33,394 nt of DNA from Acidobacteriota bacterium (GTDB taxonomy: Bacteria > Acidobacteriota > Thermoanaerobaculia > Thermoanaerobaculales > Sulfomarinibacteraceae). Below the pieces are notes generated by a model. It saw only the letters and a program-made list of their open reading frames with translations, was not told the origin of the DNA and ran no database searches. The stretch is from assembly GCA_024641545.1 (NCBI GenBank), contig JAHECW010000040.1, positions 1,578-34,971 of the forward strand. Direction: 5' to 3'. Positions 25,649 to 33,394 of this stretch are shown in pieces; position 1 is the first letter of the stretch; each line of letters opens with the position of its first letter. The position numbers and the translations under genes were made by a program.

Positions 25649-26988
25649 GGTTCCTCCCTGGATATCCCATAGGCCTGCATCTTCTTGTAGAGGTTGGATC
25701 TTGGGGTTTCGACGGCGCGCGCGGTGGCGGCGATGTTCCAGTTGTTGGCCGCCAGGTGGTGGCGCAGGAAAGCGATCTCGGAGGCGCGCTGGAAATCCTG
25801 CAGGGTGGGTTCCGCCAGCAGCCGTTGCAGCTCGTCCCCCGCGGCGGTCGAATCAAACAGGTCGACGCCCTCGATGGTGTCGTCGAGCTCCATGATCACC
25901 GCCCGCTCGACGACATTCTTGAGCTCGCGGACGTTGCCGCGCCAAGGGTGGCGCGCCAGCCGTGCGAGCGCGCCCGGGCTCCACTTCTTCGCCCGCCGGC
26001 TGTACTCGACGCAGTAGCGCTCGGTGAGGTGTTCCACCAGGGGCGCGATGTCTTCCGGATGGTCGCGCAGGGGTGGCGTCTTGAGCACCAGCACCGCGAG
26101 GCGGAAGAAGAGATCTTCGCGGAAACTCCCATCGCCGACCGCGCCGGTCAGATCCTTGTTGGTCGCCGCAATCACCCGGACATCGACGGTGAACGGCCGC
26201 TCGGCCCCGACCGGCTCGACTTCACCATCCTGCAGGACCCGAAGCACCTTGGCCTGGGTCTTGAGACTCATGTCGCCGACCTCGTCGAGAAAGATGGTCC
26301 CCCCGTCCGCCTGGACGAACTTGCCCACCTGTCGCTGATGCGCGCCGGTGAAGGACCCCTTCTCGTGGCCGAAGAGCTCGGATTCGATGAGCTCCTCGGG
26401 AATCGCGGCGCAGTTGACCCGGATGAACGGCTTGCGCGCCCGGTCCGAAAGGTGGTGCAGCCGGCGGGCCACCAACTCCTTGCCGGTGCCGGACTCGCCG
26501 AGGATGAGGACGGTGGCGTGGGTCGGCGCCGCACGCGTGATCTCCTCGCGCAGGCGGGCCATGGCGGCGCTCGACCCGAGCAGCGGCGGCGGTTCGTCCA
26601 CCCCGTTGAGCTCCCGCGCCACCCGGCCCTGGGCGACCGCGCCGCGGACGGTGAGCAGCAGATCGGCGCGGTCGGGAGGCTTGGTGAGGTAGGCGGCGGC
26701 GCCGGCGTCGAGACACTGCTGCGCGGTGAATTGATCACCGTGGCCGGTGAGGATCACCACCGGAATCTCGAGGCCCCTGCGAGCGAGATTGTCGAGCAGG
26801 CCAAAGCCGTCCATGCCCGGCATCTTGATATCGAGCAGCGCCGCGTCGGGCTGCCGCGAGTCAAGCAGATCGAGGGCTTGGAACGCGTCCTTCGCCTGTT
26901 CGACCTCGTACCCCGCCGAGCTGAGGATTCGATCGAGCACGCGACGGACACCGGGATCGTCGTCGATGATGAGGATTCGGCCATCCAT
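25645..26988 (-). CDS. NtrC-family sigma-54-dependent response regulator
   Basis: A 447-residue three-domain regulator. The receiver domain (about 3-120) has acidic D10/D11, the phospho-acceptor D53 in [12 protein letters not shown]81 and K103. The AAA+ domain has Walker A GESGTGK (164-170), the sigma-54-contacting loop GSFTGA (211-216, a Ser variant of the usual GAFTGA) and Walker [10 protein letters not shown] (231-239). The C-terminal Fis-type helix-turn-helix ends in [16 protein letters not shown]. It should drive sigma-54 promoters when phosphorylated by an unidentified histidine kinase; none lies in the window. The ATG at 26986-26988 fits the receiver start; a longer frame reading upstream lacks support. 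TGC-TACCAT ends 6 nt before it and no Shine-Dalgarno is present. It overlaps pyrE by four bases. Confidence 0.93.
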
Positions 26989-26994
26989 GCCGAC

Positions 26995-27002
26995 ATGGTA
27001 GC
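26995..27002 (-). promoter_or_regulatory. Putative extended -10 of the NtrC-type gene
   Basis: On the minus strand TGC-TACCAT precedes GTCGGC and the ATG, the hexamer ending 6 nt from the start codon. It is nearly identical to the start region of the PBP gene. No matching -35 is apparent. The inference is a leaderless transcript. Confidence 0.5.
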
Positions 27003-27126
27003 AGCCGGGAGCACAGGCTGGAATCCGGCGGTGTTGGTGAGGCGCGTCACCCCCACTCTCCGCTTCGGTTTCGCTCACATGAACCGGCTGTCGACTCCCA
27101 CGATAGAGTGGAGGTGGAGTCGTGCC

Positions 27127-28077
27127 ATGAGTCGATTGTGTTTCCCCTCCCGCGTTGCATCCGTCTGCCTCGGGACCACGCTCCTGTGCGGTCCATCCGG
27201 GGGGTTCGACCTGTTGCGACCCCTCGATGCGTCCTTTCCGCCGGGCATCGGGATCAGCGATGCCACTGCGACCGAGGAGGGATTTCCCGAGGTCGATGAC
27301 CCGAGCTTCGAGGACCAGCTCATCGCCCTCGTCAACCAGGAGCGCTGGACCAACGGTCAGCTCGCCCCGCTCAAACGGGTCGATCTGCTCGACACCTCGT
27401 CGGAGACCCACAGCACCAACATGGCGGTGCGGAACTTCGTGATGCACTGCGACCCGGACACCGGCACCATGCCGTGGGATCGGATGGTCGCCGCCGGCTA
27501 CCTCTACTCGAACGCCGGCGAGAACATCGCCTGGGGATACCCCGATCCGACCGCGGTCATGGCCGGCTGGATGGCGAGCTCGGGCCACCGCGCGAACATC
27601 CTCTCGACAACGTTCCGAGAAATGGGAAACGGCTTCTTCAACCAGCCCGGAGACCAGGGCAACGTCCGCCGCACGACCACGACGGGGTGCACACCGAACG
27701 TCTTCAACGAGGGGCCCTTCACCCGATACTGGACCCAGAATTTCGGCAAACGCAGCTCGGTCTATCCCGTGGTCATCAATCGCGAGGCCTCGCTCACCGA
27801 CAGCCGCGACGTCTCCCTCTTCCTCTACGGCAGCTGGACCGAGATGCGGCTGCGCAACGACAACGGCGCCTGGACCGCCTGGATGGCGTTTGCCAACAAC
27901 ACGTCGTGGCAGCTCGGCTACGGCAACGGCACCAAGACCGTCAGCGCCGAGATGCGAACCGGATCCACCGTGGTCTCGGCATCCGACACGATCATTCTCG
28001 AGGACACCGGCGAGGTCATCTTCTTCGACGGTTTCGAGTCGGCAAGCACGTCGGCGTGGAGTGCGGTCTCGCCCTGA
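27127..28077 (+). CDS. Exported CAP/SCP-domain protein with C-terminal DGFE tail
   Basis: A 316-residue predicted exported protein. The N-terminus (residues 1-25, hydrophobic with two Cys) is a plausible signal peptide. Residues about 60-207 form a CAP (SCP/PR-1) domain: LIALVNQERW, H95 in SSETHSTNMA, GENIAWGY (131-138, E132), SSGHRANIL (151-159, H154) and YWTQNFG (201-207). Bacterial CAP proteins are secreted, with disputed enzymatic roles. The following 90 residues look like a beta-sandwich (VSLFLYGSWTEMRLRND). The protein ends in FFDGFESASTSAWSAVSP, the same tail type as the metalloprotease at 22775. The ATG follows a GA-rich GGAGGTGGAG. The frame continues upstream but without credible protein. 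Confidence 0.83.
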   Translation: MSRLCFPSRVASVCLGTTLLCGPSGGFDLLRPLDASFPPGIGISDATATEEGFPEVDDPSFEDQLIALVNQERWTNGQLAPLKRVDLLDTSSETHSTNMAVRNFVMHCDPDTGTMPWDRMVAAGYLYSNAGENIAWGYPDPTAVMAGWMASSGHRANILSTTFREMGNGFFNQPGDQGNVRRTTTTGCTPNVFNEGPFTRYWTQNFGKRSSVYPVVINREASLTDSRDVSLFLYGSWTEMRLRNDNGAWTAWMAFANNTSWQLGYGNGTKTVSAEMRTGSTVVSASDTIILEDTGEVIFFDGFESASTSAWSAVSP

Positions 28078-28243: not shown

Positions 28244-29770
28244 ATGAGCAACGTTCAAAAGATTCTCGATGACCTCGGACTCAAAGCAACCAACCCCGGC
28301 GCCTGCACCGGTGAGTGGATCACACCCGCAGCCGGCCGCGAGCTCGTCAGCATCAACCCGACCACCGGCGAACCCATCGCCAAAGTGATCCAGGCCGATG
28401 AGGCAGCCTACGAAAAGGTCATGCAGACCGCCGCCGACAACTTCACCGAGTGGCGGATGGTTCCCGCGCCGGTGCGCGGCGAGGTCGTGCGCGACCTCGG
28501 CAATGAACTGAGAAAATTCAAAGATCCCCTGGGCCGGTTGGTCTCCCTCGAAATGGGCAAGATCAAATCCGAAGGTCTCGGCGAGGTTCAGGAGATGATC
28601 GACATGTGCGACTTCGCGGTCGGGCTGTCGCGCCAGCTCTATGGTCCGACCATGATGTCCGAACGGCCCCGCCACCGGATGTACGAGCAGTGGCACCCGC
28701 TCGGCGTGGTCGGCGTCATCTCCGCGTTCAACTTCCCGGTCGCGGTGTGGGCGTGGAACGCGGCCCTGGCCGCCGTCTGCGGCGACACCACGGTGTGGAA
28801 GCCCTCGTCATCGACTCCGCTCACCGCGATTGCGGTTCAGAACATCTGCAACACGGTGATGAAGCGGCACGGGCTCACCGGCATCTTCAACGTCGCCATC
28901 GGGCCGGGCTCGGTGGTCGGCGAGCGTCTGATCAACGACCCGCGGGTTCCCTTGATCTCCTTCACCGGCTCGACCAAGATGGGCCGGCACGTCTCGGAAG
29001 CCTGCGCCAAGCGTTTCGGCCGCAGCATCCTCGAGCTCGGCGGCAACAACGCGATCATCGTCGAGCCCGACGCCAATCTCGATCTCGCCCTGCGGGCGAT
29101 CCTCTTCGCCGCGGTGGGCACCGCCGGTCAGCGCTGCACCAGCCTGCGCCGTCTCTTCCTCCACTCGTCCATCGCCGACGACGTGGTGGCCAAGCTGGTC
29201 AAAGCCTACGGCAGCATCACCATCGGCAACCCCCTCGATGACGGCATCCTGATGGGCCCGCTCGTCAACGAGGGCGCCATCAAGGACTATGAGAACGCGC
29301 TCGAAAAGGTGCGTGAGCAGGGCGGCGAGATCGTCACCGGCGGCCACCGGGTCGACCGTCCGGGCTACTACGTCGAACCGACGATCGTCCGGCTGAAGAG
29401 TCAGATCCCGATCTCCTGCGACGAGACCTTCGCGCCGATCCTCTACGTGCTCACCTACGACACCCTCGACGAGGCGGTCCGGACCCACAACTCGGTGCCA
29501 CAGGGTCTGTCGTCGGCAATCTTCACCTCGAGCATGTACTCGGCCGAGCGGTTCCTGTCGCACGAGGGCTCCGACTGCGGCATCGCCAACGTCAACATCG
29601 GCACCTCGGGCGCCGAGATCGGCGGCGCCTTCGGCGGCGAGAAGGAGACCGGCGGCGGCCGCGAGGCCGGGTCCGACTCGTGGAAGGCCTACATGCGGCG
29701 CCAGACCTGCACCATCAACTGGTCCACCGAGCTGCCGCTGGCGCAGGGTGTGAGCTTCGACATCGACTGA
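28244..29770 (+). CDS. ALDH7-type aldehyde dehydrogenase (probable L-2-aminoadipate-6-semialdehyde dehydrogenase)
   Basis: A 508-residue NAD(P)-dependent aldehyde dehydrogenase. The catalytic set is intact: N163 in AFNFP, K186 in VWKPS, E264 in ELGGNNA and the nucleophile C298 in GTAGQRCTSLRRLF. The ELGGNN form and GQRCTSLRR context are typical of the ALDH7 (antiquitin, AmaB/Pcd) group, which oxidises alpha-aminoadipic semialdehyde in lysine breakdown, also betaine aldehyde and lipid aldehydes. The lysine role is inferred from family; no lysine catabolic partner is adjacent. GGAGG lies 5 nt before the ATG. It has its own promoter and terminator and so is a single-gene unit. Confidence 0.92.
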   Translation: MSNVQKILDDLGLKATNPGACTGEWITPAAGRELVSINPTTGEPIAKVIQADEAAYEKVMQTAADNFTEWRMVPAPVRGEVVRDLGNELRKFKDPLGRLVSLEMGKIKSEGLGEVQEMIDMCDFAVGLSRQLYGPTMMSERPRHRMYEQWHPLGVVGVISAFNFPVAVWAWNAALAAVCGDTTVWKPSSSTPLTAIAVQNICNTVMKRHGLTGIFNVAIGPGSVVGERLINDPRVPLISFTGSTKMGRHVSEACAKRFGRSILELGGNNAIIVEPDANLDLALRAILFAAVGTAGQRCTSLRRLFLHSSIADDVVAKLVKAYGSITIGNPLDDGILMGPLVNEGAIKDYENALEKVREQGGEIVTGGHRVDRPGYYVEPTIVRLKSQIPISCDETFAPILYVLTYDTLDEAVRTHNSVPQGLSSAIFTSSMYSAERFLSHEGSDCGIANVNIGTSGAEIGGAFGGEKETGGGREAGSDSWKAYMRRQTCTINWSTELPLAQGVSFDID

Positions 29771-29790
29771 ACCGAATCCGGTCCGATTCC

Positions 29791-29825
29791 ACGCCCCGCG
29801 TCGGCAGCGACGCGGGGCGTTTTCT
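29791..29825 (+). terminator. Strong intrinsic terminator after the ALDH gene
   Basis: A perfect 12-bp stem, ACGCCCCGCGTC (29791-29802) with GACGCGGGGCGT (29809-29820), with loop GGCAGC, runs into TTTTCTT. It starts 21 bp past the stop codon. Confidence 0.95.
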
Positions 29826-29882
29826 TGTCCTGCAACGCGTTCCGAGCTTGATTCTCCCGTCGCAGGTGGCCGAGAGTGCCCC

Positions 29883-29950
29883 CTCAAACGATATTCGGGC
29901 CAGAAACGCGCGACCTTCTGGTTGGGCAGTGGTACCCAAAATCGTTTGAG
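29883..29950. repeat. Nested inverted repeat between convergent genes
   Basis: CTCAAACGAT (29883-29892) pairs perfectly with ATCGTTTGAG (29941-29950), and CCAGAA (29900-29905) with TTCTGG (29916-29921) inside it. It lies 58 bp beyond the YacP-like stop, between that gene and the ALDH terminator. A bidirectional terminator, small RNA or miniature element are all possible; the arms lack a long T-run. Confidence 0.5.
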
Positions 29951-30008
29951 ACGGCACGTCCGTTCAGCGCCGGAACCTTGTTTCCTCCGGGCAATGACCC
30001 GACGAAGC

Positions 30009-30461
30009 CTACTCGTTGTCCGGTTCACCCCCGGCAAAGAAGGCTTCCCAGTCGGCGATGTCGTGGCTCGAGAGCTTGGACTCGAAGGTGGTCGGCCGCG
30101 GCTGCTGTTCTCTCCGCACCCGCCAGTCGGCGAGGCGCCGGACCTCGGCGCCGCGCGCACGGACGCGATCGGCGAGACCACGGTCATCGGTGATCACCGA
30201 CCACTGTCTGGCAGCGGGGCCATCGGGCAGCATGCCGATGATGACATCGTCCGCGGTCCGAGAGCCGGCATAGACAACCGTCGCCTTGCCCAGGCTCTCC
30301 CGAACCGGGACGCCCGCCGGCGGCGGGCCGTCGAAGACGACGGTCACCGACATGGTCTCGTGGCGGGCGCGGTCCAGAACCTGCCTGCGGACGGCGGATC
30401 TGCTGCGCAGGTGCCCCGGCAACCGGTGGAGAAGGTTGTTGCCGTCGATCACGAGAGGCAT
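30009..30461 (-). CDS. NYN-domain (YacP-like) predicted ribonuclease
   Basis: A 150-residue protein of the NYN/PIN-like fold, as in YacP/Rae1. Acidic residues expected at the metal site are visible: D6 in IDGNNLLH, D44 in VVFDG, D71-D72 in TADDVI and TDDR (91-94). YacP-type proteins are RNA nucleases (Rae1 cleaves mRNA in the ribosome A-site in Bacillus); this exact role here is inferred by family only. The C-terminal 40 residues are charged. It begins 28 bp after the DUF4388/J/TPR gene and has no clear Shine-Dalgarno, so it is probably co-transcribed. Confidence 0.83.
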   Translation of the reverse strand: MPLVIDGNNLLHRLPGHLRSRSAVRRQVLDRARHETMSVTVVFDGPPPAGVPVRESLGKATVVYAGSRTADDVIIGMLPDGPAARQWSVITDDRGLADRVRARGAEVRRLADWRVRREQQPRPTTFESKLSSHDIADWEAFFAGGEPDNE

Positions 30462-30489
30462 CAGGCTCGCCCCGCGGTCTTCCGGCGGG

Positions 30490-32043
30490 CTATCTCACGC
30501 GGCGCAGCAGCCGGTCGAGTTCGCGCCCCCCGACGAGCTTCTTGTACATCTCGGCCGCGGTCTCGTTCCACGGATCGGCGCCGACCGCCCGCTCGAGAGC
30601 CTTCCGCTGGCGCTCTTTGTGCCCGCGCGCCTTCCAGAAGTTCGCGATCTCGATCCACCCCTGGACAAAGGTGGGGTCGACCTCGACGGCGATCCGCAGA
30701 CGCTCGAGGGCGCGGCCGATCCAGAGCGGGTTCCGCATCTGGAGCCTGGCCAGCTTGAGCAGCTCCGCGGGCTGGGGATCCAGGGCGCACGCCTGCTCGA
30801 GCAGTTGGATGGCAAGATAGGTCTCGCCGGACGCGATCAACTGGTCGGCACGCGCGACGTTCGCTTTGACCATGGACGCCCGCGCCGCCGGATCGGTTCG
30901 GGGTTTTTTCGATAGACTCTCCGCCTGCGCCTCCTCGACCGAGGCGAGAACCTTGTCGTAGCGGCGGCGGGCCTTGGGATCGGACAGCAGCTCGTAAGCC
31001 TCACGGGCGCGGTCCACGATGGCGGACAGGTTCGCCCTCTGATCGACCAGGTGCGGCTCGTCCACCCGCTTGGGCGAGTAGCGCTTGCGGATCACCGTGA
31101 AGGCCTTCTCGATCTGGTCCGACCCGGCGCCGTGCTGGAGACCGAGGGCGCGATAATGATCGATCCGGGTGACCCTCGCCGCCAACTCCATGATTCTGTG
31201 CCGCTCTTCTCGATGGTGCTCTTCGAAACCGCTGTCGTCGATGCCGGCATCGACCTCGACACCGGCCGGTTCCTGGACCAGCACTTGATCCGGAACCGAG
31301 ACCGCTTTCGGACTACCGGGGCCGGCCGCGGGGTCGATCGCGACGACCCCGGCGACCACCAGCGCATAGAGACTGGTCACCACCTCCTGCTCGGGCATGG
31401 TCGAGAGGTGCTTGAGGGCCGAGAGGTTCTTGGCGGAATCGAGGCGGGACAGGATGAATCCCTCGCTCGGAGTGAGCTCGAGCTGGCCGAGCACGCTTTC
31501 GATGCTGAGCTGGAGCCTCACCTTCTGGTCGAAGGAACCGAGGAGGTCCCACATCGCCACCTGGTCGCGGCATTCACGAGCCGCAGTCAGGATGATCTGA
31601 GAGGTCGTGATGTTGGGCAACGTGTCCGGCTGAGGGTCGCCCTGACCTCCCATGAATCCGAACCGGGGTGACGATTCCGATGCCGCCCGACGAATGATCT
31701 CCAGCGTCAGTTCCTGGAGCTCGGCCTCGAGTTCGGATTGGGCGATGCACCCCCGCTTGACCATGATATGACCCAATGTGCCGTCCTCGTCTGCTCCCTG
31801 GGCGAGGAGGGTCAGGGCGCGCTCGTCCTCGCTGATCCACTGCCGCTCGACGAGCCACATCCCGAGCATTTCGCTCTCGACGTTCGATCGTGCCGCGCGG
31901 ATCTCTCCGTTGACGAAGAAGATCTCGCGCCGGGCATCCTCCGAGCCGATGACCAGGGTCCCGGTTGCGTGGTCGGCCGCAAGGCGCGCCATCCGGGCCG
32001 GCAGGGGCTGGGCAAAGGTGGGCGACCGTTCGTCTTCGACCAC
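30490..32043 (-). CDS. DUF4388 protein with degenerate J-domain and TPR-like C-terminus
   Basis: A 517-residue soluble protein. Residues about 15-125 resemble DUF4388 (PATAN): TGTLVIGSEDARREIFFVNGEIRAARSN, then a helical region. Residues about 294-364 have the layout of a J-domain (DHYRALGLQHGAGSDQIEKAFTVIRKRY ... AYELLSDPKARRRYD), but the HPD tripeptide that stimulates Hsp70 is missing: the loop reads YSPKR. Residues about 390-500 are TPR-like helical pairs (AIQLLEQACALDPQPAELLKLARL, GRALERLRIAVEVDPTFVQGWIEIANFW). It is probably a scaffold rather than an Hsp70 co-chaperone. The start is placed at GTG 32041-32043, 7 nt after GAGG; a TTG two codons upstream overlaps the previous stop (TTGA). 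Function unknown. Confidence 0.78.
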   Translation of the reverse strand: MVEDERSPTFAQPLPARMARLAADHATGTLVIGSEDARREIFFVNGEIRAARSNVESEMLGMWLVERQWISEDERALTLLAQGADEDGTLGHIMVKRGCIAQSELEAELQELTLEIIRRAASESSPRFGFMGGQGDPQPDTLPNITTSQIILTAARECRDQVAMWDLLGSFDQKVRLQLSIESVLGQLELTPSEGFILSRLDSAKNLSALKHLSTMPEQEVVTSLYALVVAGVVAIDPAAGPGSPKAVSVPDQVLVQEPAGVEVDAGIDDSGFEEHHREERHRIMELAARVTRIDHYRALGLQHGAGSDQIEKAFTVIRKRYSPKRVDEPHLVDQRANLSAIVDRAREAYELLSDPKARRRYDKVLASVEEAQAESLSKKPRTDPAARASMVKANVARADQLIASGETYLAIQLLEQACALDPQPAELLKLARLQMRNPLWIGRALERLRIAVEVDPTFVQGWIEIANFWKARGHKERQRKALERAVGADPWNETAAEMYKKLVGGRELDRLLRRVR

Positions 32044-32045
32044 GG

Positions 32046-33155
32046 TCAATCCTCAACCCCGAGCTCGCCGTCCGCGTCACTACCGGAGACCTCGATGACA
32101 TGGGGTTGGAAGCCCGCCTCGACCAAGGTCGGCGGGACGTCTCCCATGGCCTTTTCGGCCGCTGTCTGAGTCGGGAAACTCCCCCAGACGAGACGAAAGC
32201 ACATGTCGCCGTTGGTCGGGTCGGCCTTGATGGTGCGCAGGGCCTTGCGTTCGAGGTTTCGTTTGCGGAGCATGCGCTGGAGATCCTGCGGCTCGCAACC
32301 CATCTCGACGACGACACCCCAATCTCCGGAACCCACCGCCGCCGCATCCTCGTTGCTGTCGCCCCGCAACAGGACGAACGCGACAAACACGGCGATGATG
32401 AGCAGCAGGCCGGCCCCGGCGCCGATCATCCACCCGGGGATTTTTCGCCACGACGGCTCGTCCTCGTCCAGGTCGGTCCCGGGCCACTCGAGATCGTGGT
32501 TGGGGACGACCGGCTCCGACGCTTCCAGAATGCCCGTGGTCACCAGAGCGGCGACGAGCCGAACAACCTCGTCGGGATGGTGCGAGGACTCGGCGGCGAT
32601 GGTCGCCGCGGTGGCGCTAGCGGTGATGTTCGCGACGATGAGGTCCGCCTCTTCGGTGAGGCGAAGCGGTGCGTAGAGCTCGAGGAAGTTTTTCGAGCGC
32701 TGGAGTGTGATGCGGCTGTCGGGAAGAATCGAAGCGGCAACGTTGTGCTTGGTGTCCGCGAGGACCAGCTCGACCAGCGCGTGGGTGATGGAAATGGTCG
32801 CTCCGTTCACCTTCGGCGGCTGATCGTTTTCCAAGGTGAACTGCCGGTCGGGATCCAGAAGCCACTGGTGAAGCGCGCGCTGGAGGATCTCCTTGGCGGC
32901 GCCCATCGCACGGGTTTCGGGAATGCCGTGCGCCCGCGAGAGGAACCGCGCCTCTGCGAGGAGATCATCCTTGCCTGAACCGTTGCGGCCGAGACGGACC
33001 GCCAGTTCATCCGAGTCCAATCCGCCGGCGCTGTGAATTCGTCCCTGGCGCACCCCGAGAACGAGCTCTCCCCCGGTCCAGGAGAGTCTCGCCGACCCCG
33101 GATCCCGCTGCGCAATCCAACGCCCGAACTCCCAGATCTGTTTCGGATCCTGCAT
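32046..33155 (-). CDS. DUF4388-like protein with one membrane segment and SPOR-like C-terminus
   Basis: A 369-residue protein. The N-terminal part (about 10-210) begins with SARLSWTGGELVLGVRQGRIHSAG, similar to the DUF4388 (PATAN) strand pattern, and continues helical. A single membrane helix (243-263, MIGAGAGLLLIIAVFVAFVLL) separates it from about 100 residues that end in CFRLVWGSFPTQTAAEKAMGDVPPTLVEAGFQPHVIEV, a SPOR-like layout (the 'GsF.....A......l...g..p.v..v' pattern of septal peptidoglycan-binding domains). Topology is probably cytoplasmic N-terminus, periplasmic C-terminus. The ATG follows TAAGCT by 6 nt, with no Shine-Dalgarno. Its stop overlaps or abuts the start of the DUF4388/J/TPR gene, so the two are coupled. 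Confidence 0.78.
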   Translation of the reverse strand: MQDPKQIWEFGRWIAQRDPGSARLSWTGGELVLGVRQGRIHSAGGLDSDELAVRLGRNGSGKDDLLAEARFLSRAHGIPETRAMGAAKEILQRALHQWLLDPDRQFTLENDQPPKVNGATISITHALVELVLADTKHNVAASILPDSRITLQRSKNFLELYAPLRLTEEADLIVANITASATAATIAAESSHHPDEVVRLVAALVTTGILEASEPVVPNHDLEWPGTDLDEDEPSWRKIPGWMIGAGAGLLLIIAVFVAFVLLRGDSNEDAAAVGSGDWGVVVEMGCEPQDLQRMLRKRNLERKALRTIKADPTNGDMCFRLVWGSFPTQTAAEKAMGDVPPTLVEAGFQPHVIEVSGSDADGELGVED

Positions 33156-33161
33156 GGCGCG

Positions 33162-33191
33162 AGCTTAGTTCATCGCCGTGGAGGTTGTAAA
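33162..33191 (-). promoter_or_regulatory. Sigma-70-type promoter of the DUF4388 operon, leaderless configuration
   Basis: On the minus strand TTTACA (33186-33191) and TAAGCT (33162-33167) are 18 nt apart, and the -10 ends 6 nt before the ATG at 33153-33155. Transcription would start at or beside the start codon. No Shine-Dalgarno is present. Confidence 0.65.
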
Positions 33192-33307
33192 GCACCACCA
33201 TCGGTACGGGCGAAGATCTCATGTGCTCAAAATGAAAGACTTGTCCCTGATCTCCCGGGTGAAACCACCGCCCGGCGCCGAACCGGAACGCAACCGGATC
33301 AACAGGG

Positions 33308-33336
33308 TTGACAGAAGACCCGTCGAGATCTAGTAT
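33308..33336 (+). promoter_or_regulatory. Consensus promoter for the terminal tRNA gene
   Basis: A perfect TTGACA (33308-33313) and TAGTAT (33331-33336) are separated by 17 nt, and the tRNA 5' end is 24 nt downstream. This is the best match to the sigma-70 consensus in the window. Confidence 0.85.
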
Positions 33337-33360
33337 GACCGTCCCAACGGTTCACCGTTT

Positions 33361-33394
33361 GGGAGGTTAGCTCAGGGGTAGAGCACCTGGCTTA
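33361..33394 (+). tRNA. Partial tRNA, probably tRNA-Val(UAC), cut by the window end
   Basis: The first 34 bases of a tRNA are visible: acceptor strand GGGAGGT, D-arm GCTC-AGGGGTA-GAGC, anticodon-stem strand CCTGG and the loop start CTTA. The first two anticodon bases are therefore U and A. The short D-arm and overall sequence suggest valine (UAC), but the last anticodon base lies outside the window, so isoleucine or another UAN reading is not excluded. Confidence 0.85.

Follow-up and report, generated by a model that had tools for sequence, protein, structure and literature searches.

A recurring three-gene association in Acidobacteriota encoding two PATAN-winged-helix proteins, with SPOR-like and J-domain/TPR ends, and a YacP-like NYN protein

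The stretch of DNA analysed here (the window, 33,394 nucleotides) was taken from contig JAHECW010000040.1 (positions 1,578 to 34,971) of assembly GCA_024641545.1, a 5.4 Mb Acidobacteriota genome in 310 contigs which is 99.36% complete. Near its end, two neighbouring genes on the minus strand, named P1 (32046..33155, 369 amino acids) and P2 (30490..32043), encode proteins that begin with a related pair of domains, a PATAN (PatA N-terminal) or, in P1, PATAN-like domain, the PATAN family being taken here as the same as DUF4388, and a winged helix. In P1 this part is followed by one transmembrane helix and a SPOR-like domain, and in P2 by a J-domain and TPR repeats. A third gene, encoding a YacP-like NYN-domain protein of 150 amino acids (30009..30461, minus strand), starts 28 bases after P2. 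The architecture of these proteins and the recurring association of the three genes are well supported, and the helical insertion of the PATAN domain is, judged from profile comparisons, homologous to the MshEN motif that binds cyclic di-GMP (c-di-GMP). The relatives compared were metagenome-assembled genomes labelled Thermoanaerobaculales, Thermoanaerobaculaceae, Thermoanaerobaculum, Holophagae and other Acidobacteriota. Gene order was read in 30 Acidobacteriota loci (labelled L), many of which appear to come from genomes that are also in the genome sample (labelled G), and counts from the two are not additive. The phylum sample consisted of 396 genomes, Acidobacteriota only, of which 83 were matched by the P1 profile at the threshold of E 1e-6; families and genera in it are given as f- and g-numbers, f1 being the family of the window. 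A wider neighbourhood sample comprised 78 genomes, namely the 73 P1-positive genomes outside f1 and f2 and five further genomes of the window's class, and its fetched stretches vary in length, some stopping at contig ends.

Both open reading frames (ORFs) were recovered from the window where the initial annotation had placed them. P1 was delimited by its ORF, its structural model (mean predicted local distance difference test score, pLDDT, 85.4; predicted template modelling score, pTM, 0.60) and the family alignment. Its PATAN/DUF4388-like domain (residues 5-133, 32757..33143) was recognised in the model and by hhalign against the PATAN set of the class (95.2%). The Pfam model of DUF4388 (PF14332) gave 12 bits for the window's P1, under the cut-off of 25, matched 11 of 25 P1 members at E <=1 (best 7.7e-5), and exceeded its cut-off in the two long P1 homologues scanned (40 and 33.9 bits). 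After the winged helix (residues 143-214, 32514..32729; model, VIA comparison and hhalign with P2) comes the one long helix of the model, at residues 241-264 (32364..32435), with Arg/Lys on its N-terminal side in the alignment, which is predicted to be the single transmembrane helix. Residues 278-356 (32088..32324) were modelled as beta-alpha-beta-beta-alpha-beta, an RNP-like fold of the SPOR type. The top three Foldseek matches of this C-terminal domain were DamX, DedD and CwlC (E 0.02-0.06, probability 0.99-1.00), with RlpA lower and no match for P1 at E 0.001. VIA aligned the same part with CwlC (Z 6.5, root-mean-square deviation, rmsd, 3.6 over 75 residues), DedD (Z 6.5, rmsd 3.3, 78 residues), RlpA (Z 6.4) and DamX (Z 5.9), values which, being below 8, are weak on their own and can reflect a common arrangement, and also with a Burkholderia exported protein (Z 8.1). 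The P1 profile matched DamX 2lfv at E 0.0013. With PF05036 (SPOR) the window's P1 gave no match at E 1 in the Pfam scan, 17 of 25 P1 members matched at E <=1 (best 1.3e-5), and two longer homologues scored 24.7 (L248) and 19.5 (L231), over and under the cut-off of 21; in L248, DUF4388 and SPOR are both over cut-off in one protein. The earlier description of P1 as a protein with a DUF4388-like part, one membrane helix and a SPOR-like end thus agrees with the model, Foldseek and the profiles, its own DUF4388 score remaining below cut-off.

Two cysteines of the SPOR-like domain, Cys287 and Cys319, are invariant in the 25 P1 members and both present in 95 of 98 aligned SPOR domains; the three domains without both come from f35 genomes, in which they are encoded by an additional, shorter SPOR gene next to the main one. 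Since the end of strand 1 neighbours the start of strand 3 in an RNP-type sheet, a disulfide between these two residues is plausible. As a separate observation, the best VIA match of the P1 winged helix was a chain of the GATOR1-KICSTOR complex (Z 9.1, rmsd 2.4), and a parallel between the PATAN-plus-winged-helix arrangement and GATOR1 subunits is possible, the match covering 70 residues only.

The start of P2 is likely the GTG at 32043; a TTG at 32049 is possible and would give 519 amino acids, from which the residues are numbered here. The PATAN/DUF4388 domain (residues 16-165, 31555..32004) was found in the model (mean pLDDT 83.2, pTM 0.46) and scored 41.8 bits with PF14332 against the cut-off of 25; all 19 P2 members examined matched at E <=0.1, and the domain aligned with the class PATAN set at hhalign 99.7%. 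It is followed by the winged helix (residues 181-239, 31333..31509; model and hhalign with P1) and the J-domain (residues 296-366, 30952..31164), which was identified by PF00226 (32.9 bits, cut-off 27.8) and profile matches to DnaJ structures. At the position of the HPD triplet the sequence reads Ser-Pro-Lys in the alignment (residues 325-327, 31069..31077). The TPR repeats (residues 386-518, 30496..30894) had profile scores under or near cut-off and were supported by their fold in Foldseek and in a VIA comparison that covered the TPR part of P2 only, and not PATAN, the J-domain or the insertion. The composition proposed for the second protein, DUF4388 with a J-domain lacking HPD and TPR repeats, was therefore recovered, and structure prediction and profiles together gave both a SPOR fold and a J-domain for the pair.

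An alignment of 53 P2 rows shows the HPD triplet in 30 of them, so its absence is a lineage-specific loss and not a trait of the whole P2 family. It is present in f2 (12/12), f4 (3/3), f10 (2/2), f17 (5/5), f55 (4/4) and single rows of f37, f50, f63 and f72, and absent from f1 (16/16), f6 (5/5), f8 (1/1) and f7, whose only row reads HPG. Because of its wide spread over families, the triplet is likely the older state and probably ancestral in P2. In a quick, unrooted P2 tree built without the HPD columns, two changes are required, forced by starred branches, by which HPD was lost at least twice; the joining of f7 and f6 in this tree may be a long-branch artefact.

The insertion in the PATAN domain was compared with MshEN in the form of profiles. 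For the PATAN set, the P2-PATAN profile matched 34 of 37 DUF4388 loci of the class and three without insertion were dropped, leaving 31, a choice that favours insertion-bearing domains; the MshEN set contained 28 stretches from 32 PF05157 loci obtained with a single PilB-type seed. The two aligned over 53 columns with no gaps at hhalign 98.9% (E 3.6e-17, one comparison), while 20 column shuffles of MshEN reached at most 1.3% and six further segments, taken from elsewhere in P1 and P2, at most 0.5%. In the passages of PMC5013675 describing MshE, the c-di-GMP-binding unit has the same length of 53 residues. The shorter NCBIfam model NF053729, and not PF05157, detected the PATAN insertions: four of four chosen PATAN domains, three of them chosen for a clear motif, scored 42.3 to 51.7 against the cut-off of 38. 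When the 114 over-cut-off NF053729 matches of the 30 class genomes were compared with the 150 DUF4388 matches listed, at least 51 overlapped a DUF4388 match, 34 of these lay wholly inside one, and the overlapping matches mostly started about 54 codons in. PF05157, the Pfam model of MshEN, had no match at E 1 in five excised PATAN insertions, and none of its four matches in the window's genome coincided with the 14 DUF4388 matches there. The corresponding segment of P1 (residues 48-101) was rejected as an MshEN candidate (hhalign 2.4%), and the P1 PATAN domain has no recognisable MshEN-type insertion.

In P2 of the window the insertion (residues 61-114, 31708..31869) is a degenerate MshEN-like tandem. 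It aligned with the MshEN of PilB-type loci at hhalign 94.5% over 51 columns and has the tandem layout, with a motif spacer of 6, not 5. The first Arg is replaced by Met in motif I and by Thr in motif II, and Gln24 is kept in motif I and replaced by Leu in motif II; the NF053729 score is 18.3 bits, under the cut-off. From these residues, the ligand site in the window's P2 is read as decayed. Among other P2 orthologues, those of f10 scored 43.5 (G056) and, in G050, 39.2 in one scan and 35.1 in another, and those of f2 scored 31.7 and 34.9 in two genomes and 18.1 in L126. By this homology the helical insertion of PATAN, reportedly named by Makarova in 2006, may be an MshEN-type c-di-GMP site. 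In the window's genome 21 GGDEF matches were found, and c-di-GMP signalling is therefore likely. The link between the PATAN insertion and MshEN is not stated in the passages on PATAN and on MshEN of PMC5812497 and PMC9090330, nor in those on PATAN of PMC7690835, and neither PATAN nor DUF4388 occurs in the main text of PMC5013675, to which the search was confined.

P1 and P2 also align with each other in their cytoplasmic parts, where a profile comparison gave 96.1% over 201 columns. This alignment was carried by the winged helix, which taken alone gave hhalign 96.3%, and binding of P1 to P2 through the shared PATAN-winged-helix part may be inferred from it.

In 25 of the 30 loci P2 is immediately preceded by P1 in the same orientation (the contig of L123 ends within P1). 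Of the remaining five, L136 is truncated, L138 represents a divergent relative, and L121, L122 and L137 contain a further P2-like gene with no P1 in the stretch, the stretch of L122 beginning 226 bases before P2. The NYN gene, which scored 31.9 bits with PF05991 (NYN/YacP nuclease, cut-off 24.6) and confirms the YacP-like neighbour named in the initial annotation, follows P2 in the window and in 23 of the 30 loci, after about 530 bases in L115 and L119. In the 78-genome sample a SPOR domain was found in 70 genomes, in 51 of them with PATAN in one ORF. SPOR occurs together with P2 in 15 genomes (f10, f17, f37, f50, f55, f63, f72) and with NYN in 19 (f6, f9, f10, f16, f37, f42, f49, f63, f72; divergent in f49), P2 with NYN in eight (about 4.5 kb apart in G041 of f4), and all three together in five. 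The pair is thus conserved together in Acidobacteriota, the association recurring over many families more than by chance; confinement of the module to Thermoanaerobaculales is ruled out by its occurrence in other families of the phylum. On this gene order, the NYN gene is considered part of the P1-P2 unit.

Other genes were seen between the members of the unit in some lineages. In f55 and f17 a TPR and Peptidase_MA_2 protein lies between the SPOR protein and P2 (L237:7827-9275, L250:6320-7792); the ORF of L237 was identified by a Pfam scan, and that of L250 and similar ones in L239 and L242 by eye. In L088 and L091 (f10 and f4), a hydrophobic membrane protein that resembles DUF4126 lies between P2 and NYN.

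Two details of the initial annotation were not supported. The overlap of four bases between P1 and P2 requires the TTG start, which is absent from two same-genus relatives. In the window and in both relatives the TGA stop of P1 is followed by two bases and a GTG, behind a purine-rich stretch; since this GTG is shared and the TTG is not kept, the genes probably abut and do not overlap. The single promoter proposed for the pair was not borne out either, as the sole sigma-70-like match in 29700-33394 is on the opposite strand. On the plus strand, within 33308-33394, a TTGACA-17-TAGTAT site precedes the apparent start of a tRNA gene which is cut by the contig end and was not called by ARAGORN. tRNA-Val and tRNA-Asp genes are divergent from P1 in two of six related loci scanned. 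Further away, the window holds a plus-strand ORF at 25756-28077, a stretch of which resembles what we presume to be a CAP/SCP-domain secreted protein.

The occurrence of the family was compared with that of the type IV pilus gene pilM. Of the 30 class genomes, the same 25 have both DUF4388 and an over-cut-off pilM. The five without both (G042, G045, G048, G051, G054), all of genus g21 in f7, also lack NF053729 and have weak P2 matches (E 2.8e-5 to 4.9e-4), and G057 of the same family has DUF4388, NF053729, pilM and a P2 match at E 1.2e-22; the joint absence in g21 counts as one loss. In the phylum sample, pilM at E 1e-40 was found in 78 of the 83 P1-profile-positive genomes (by eye) versus 233 of the 313 others (Fisher p 3.8e-5, kinship ignored). 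Passages of published work on cyanobacteria report that PATAN regulators bind PilB (PMC10519157, PMC12288463) and that the TPR-containing DnaJ3 acts with DnaK1 at PilB (PMC9239167, PMC12288463), and in Myxococcus, according to a passage of PMC11580455, two PATAN proteins are among ten that co-occur with SgmX. The link to the pilus is of moderate strength. As a strict rule, dependence on the pilus does not hold up, G101 (100% complete) and G248 (89%) being exceptions that have SPOR and P2 and no pilM match at E 1e-40.

Taken together, we tentatively favour, at somewhat less than even odds, a reading in which P1 and P2 together make up a single adaptor that spans the envelope, each being one half of it. 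P1 would be anchored in the inner membrane, its PATAN-winged-helix part on the cytoplasmic side and its SPOR-like domain, probably braced by the disulfide, in the periplasm, and cytoplasmic P2 would bind it through the related part. The SPOR end would place the complex where the cell wall is in a certain state or at a certain site on it, and the J/TPR arm of P2 would bring a client there. Where relatives have kept HPD, the J arm could call DnaK, and in the window's family it would have decayed to a docking surface. The NYN protein, a predicted RNA-cutting enzyme, would be the third member of the module. The likely client would be the motor of the type IV pilus, or else the polarity system that surrounds it, because of the cyanobacterial work on PATAN and DnaJ3/DnaK1 at PilB and the co-occurrence with pilM. 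The initial annotation had proposed a cytoplasmic scaffold joined to a wall-facing partner, which might form a complex at a cell pole or division site, and the outline of scaffold and partner stood with the SPOR fold, the J-domain and the conserved pair; it had missed the kinship of P1 and P2, the part of the NYN protein, the history of HPD and the MshEN insertion.

Several results weigh against this adaptor reading. Compared by themselves, the two PATAN parts aligned at only 2.6%, and the pTM of the P2 model leaves the arrangement of its domains open. All 25 P1 lack a Gln in strand 1 (aligned residues 280-286). In 41 of the 70 genomes with a SPOR gene neither P2 nor NYN was found in the fetched stretch (f35 28, f38 5, f17 2, f74 2, and f8, f24, f59 and f87 one each), so the partners are not obligate. 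No pilus gene was recognised among the conserved neighbours read, with no family search made for them, the pilM counts take no account of relatedness (a single genus supplies at least 14 of the 85 genomes negative for pilM), and G101 and G248 keep SPOR and P2 without a pilM match.

A complex at the division site, in which P1 would bind denuded septal glycan via its SPOR domain and recruit P2 as a scaffold, as FtsN, DamX and DedD do for other partners, is a less likely reading. DamX and DedD are among the best matches of the SPOR fold, and FtsN, like P1, has one membrane helix, with a flexible linker. According to a passage of PMC6895207, every SPOR protein known so far functions in division or morphogenesis, and SPOR domains are described there as usually carrying a glycan-binding Gln in strand 1. 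The absence of this residue in all 25 P1, against 31 of the 98 wider SPOR domains with a Gln somewhere in aligned residues 280-286 (exact position not matched), weakens septal glycan binding for the P1 family. In addition, no division gene was recognised among the conserved neighbours read, and the DUF4388 set and strong P2 matches were lost with pilM in one genus which must still divide.

Control of RNA or translation at the membrane has a slightly lower probability. P1 and P2 would then anchor the YacP/NYN nuclease, acting like Rae1, near translocating ribosomes, and the J/TPR arm would read nascent chains or chaperones. The 28-base distance between P2 and NYN in the window and the occurrence of NYN in the same stretch as SPOR (19/78) or P2 (8/78) argue for it, including lineages in which SPOR and P2 are apart (f6, f16, f42, f4). 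Against it, no RNA-binding family was among those that the Pfam scans reported for P1 and P2, and NYN was not found in the fetched stretches of f35 (0/28 genomes), f17 and f55. That the three genes share no function and merely keep their order in slowly rearranging genomes is quite improbable, for although other neighbours are also kept within families (an aldehyde dehydrogenase-like gene, as we label it, in the window's family, and presumed UvrC- and RecG-like genes in the sister family), these are exchanged from one of the two families to the other and P1-P2-NYN is retained, any two of the three genes also turn up together in distant families, and P1 and P2 have a domain pair in common.

The adaptor reading was also compared with known systems. 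PixG, PixE and LsiR of Synechocystis are PATAN-REC regulators whose PATAN domain likewise has a helical insertion, whereas P1 and P2 have no receiver domain and carry a winged helix plus a transmembrane-SPOR or J-TPR part instead. Cyanobacterial DnaJ3, which acts with DnaK1, similarly has a J-domain and TPR in one protein in the passages of PMC9239167 and PMC12288463; P2 adds PATAN and a winged helix, and HPD is lost in the window's family. As in the MshEN of MshE and PilB (passages of PMC5013675), two 24-residue motifs stand in tandem, here nested in PATAN, but in P2 of the window neither motif has its first Arg, motif II has lost its Gln, and the spacer is 6. P1 has the periplasmic-type SPOR fold of FtsN, DamX, DedD and RlpA, and unlike these it carries a conserved Cys pair, no strand-1 Gln and a cytoplasmic PATAN-winged-helix part. 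The NYN protein has, like YacP/Rae1-type nucleases, an NYN domain over the Pfam cut-off; unlike theirs, its gene adjoins envelope-protein genes.

A wider and rather speculative form of the adaptor reading, which we hold unlikely, is a transmembrane switch present in much of the phylum. It would link the state of the wall, sensed by the Cys-braced SPOR domain, to c-di-GMP and pilus-motor control, with a PATAN domain that has a built-in MshEN sensor, pairing of P1 and P2 through their PATAN-winged-helix halves, a J/TPR arm handing the motor to DnaK, and a co-regulated RNase; the window's family would have lost the sensor and HPD and become constitutive. Whatever its client, P2 unites in one protein domains that have separately been connected with the type IV pilus motor in cyanobacteria, namely PATAN and a TPR-DnaJ working with DnaK, and its gene is set beside that of a membrane partner with a SPOR fold. 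The probable homology of the PATAN insertion to MshEN would make ligand-binding tests of many DUF4388 proteins simple and direct.

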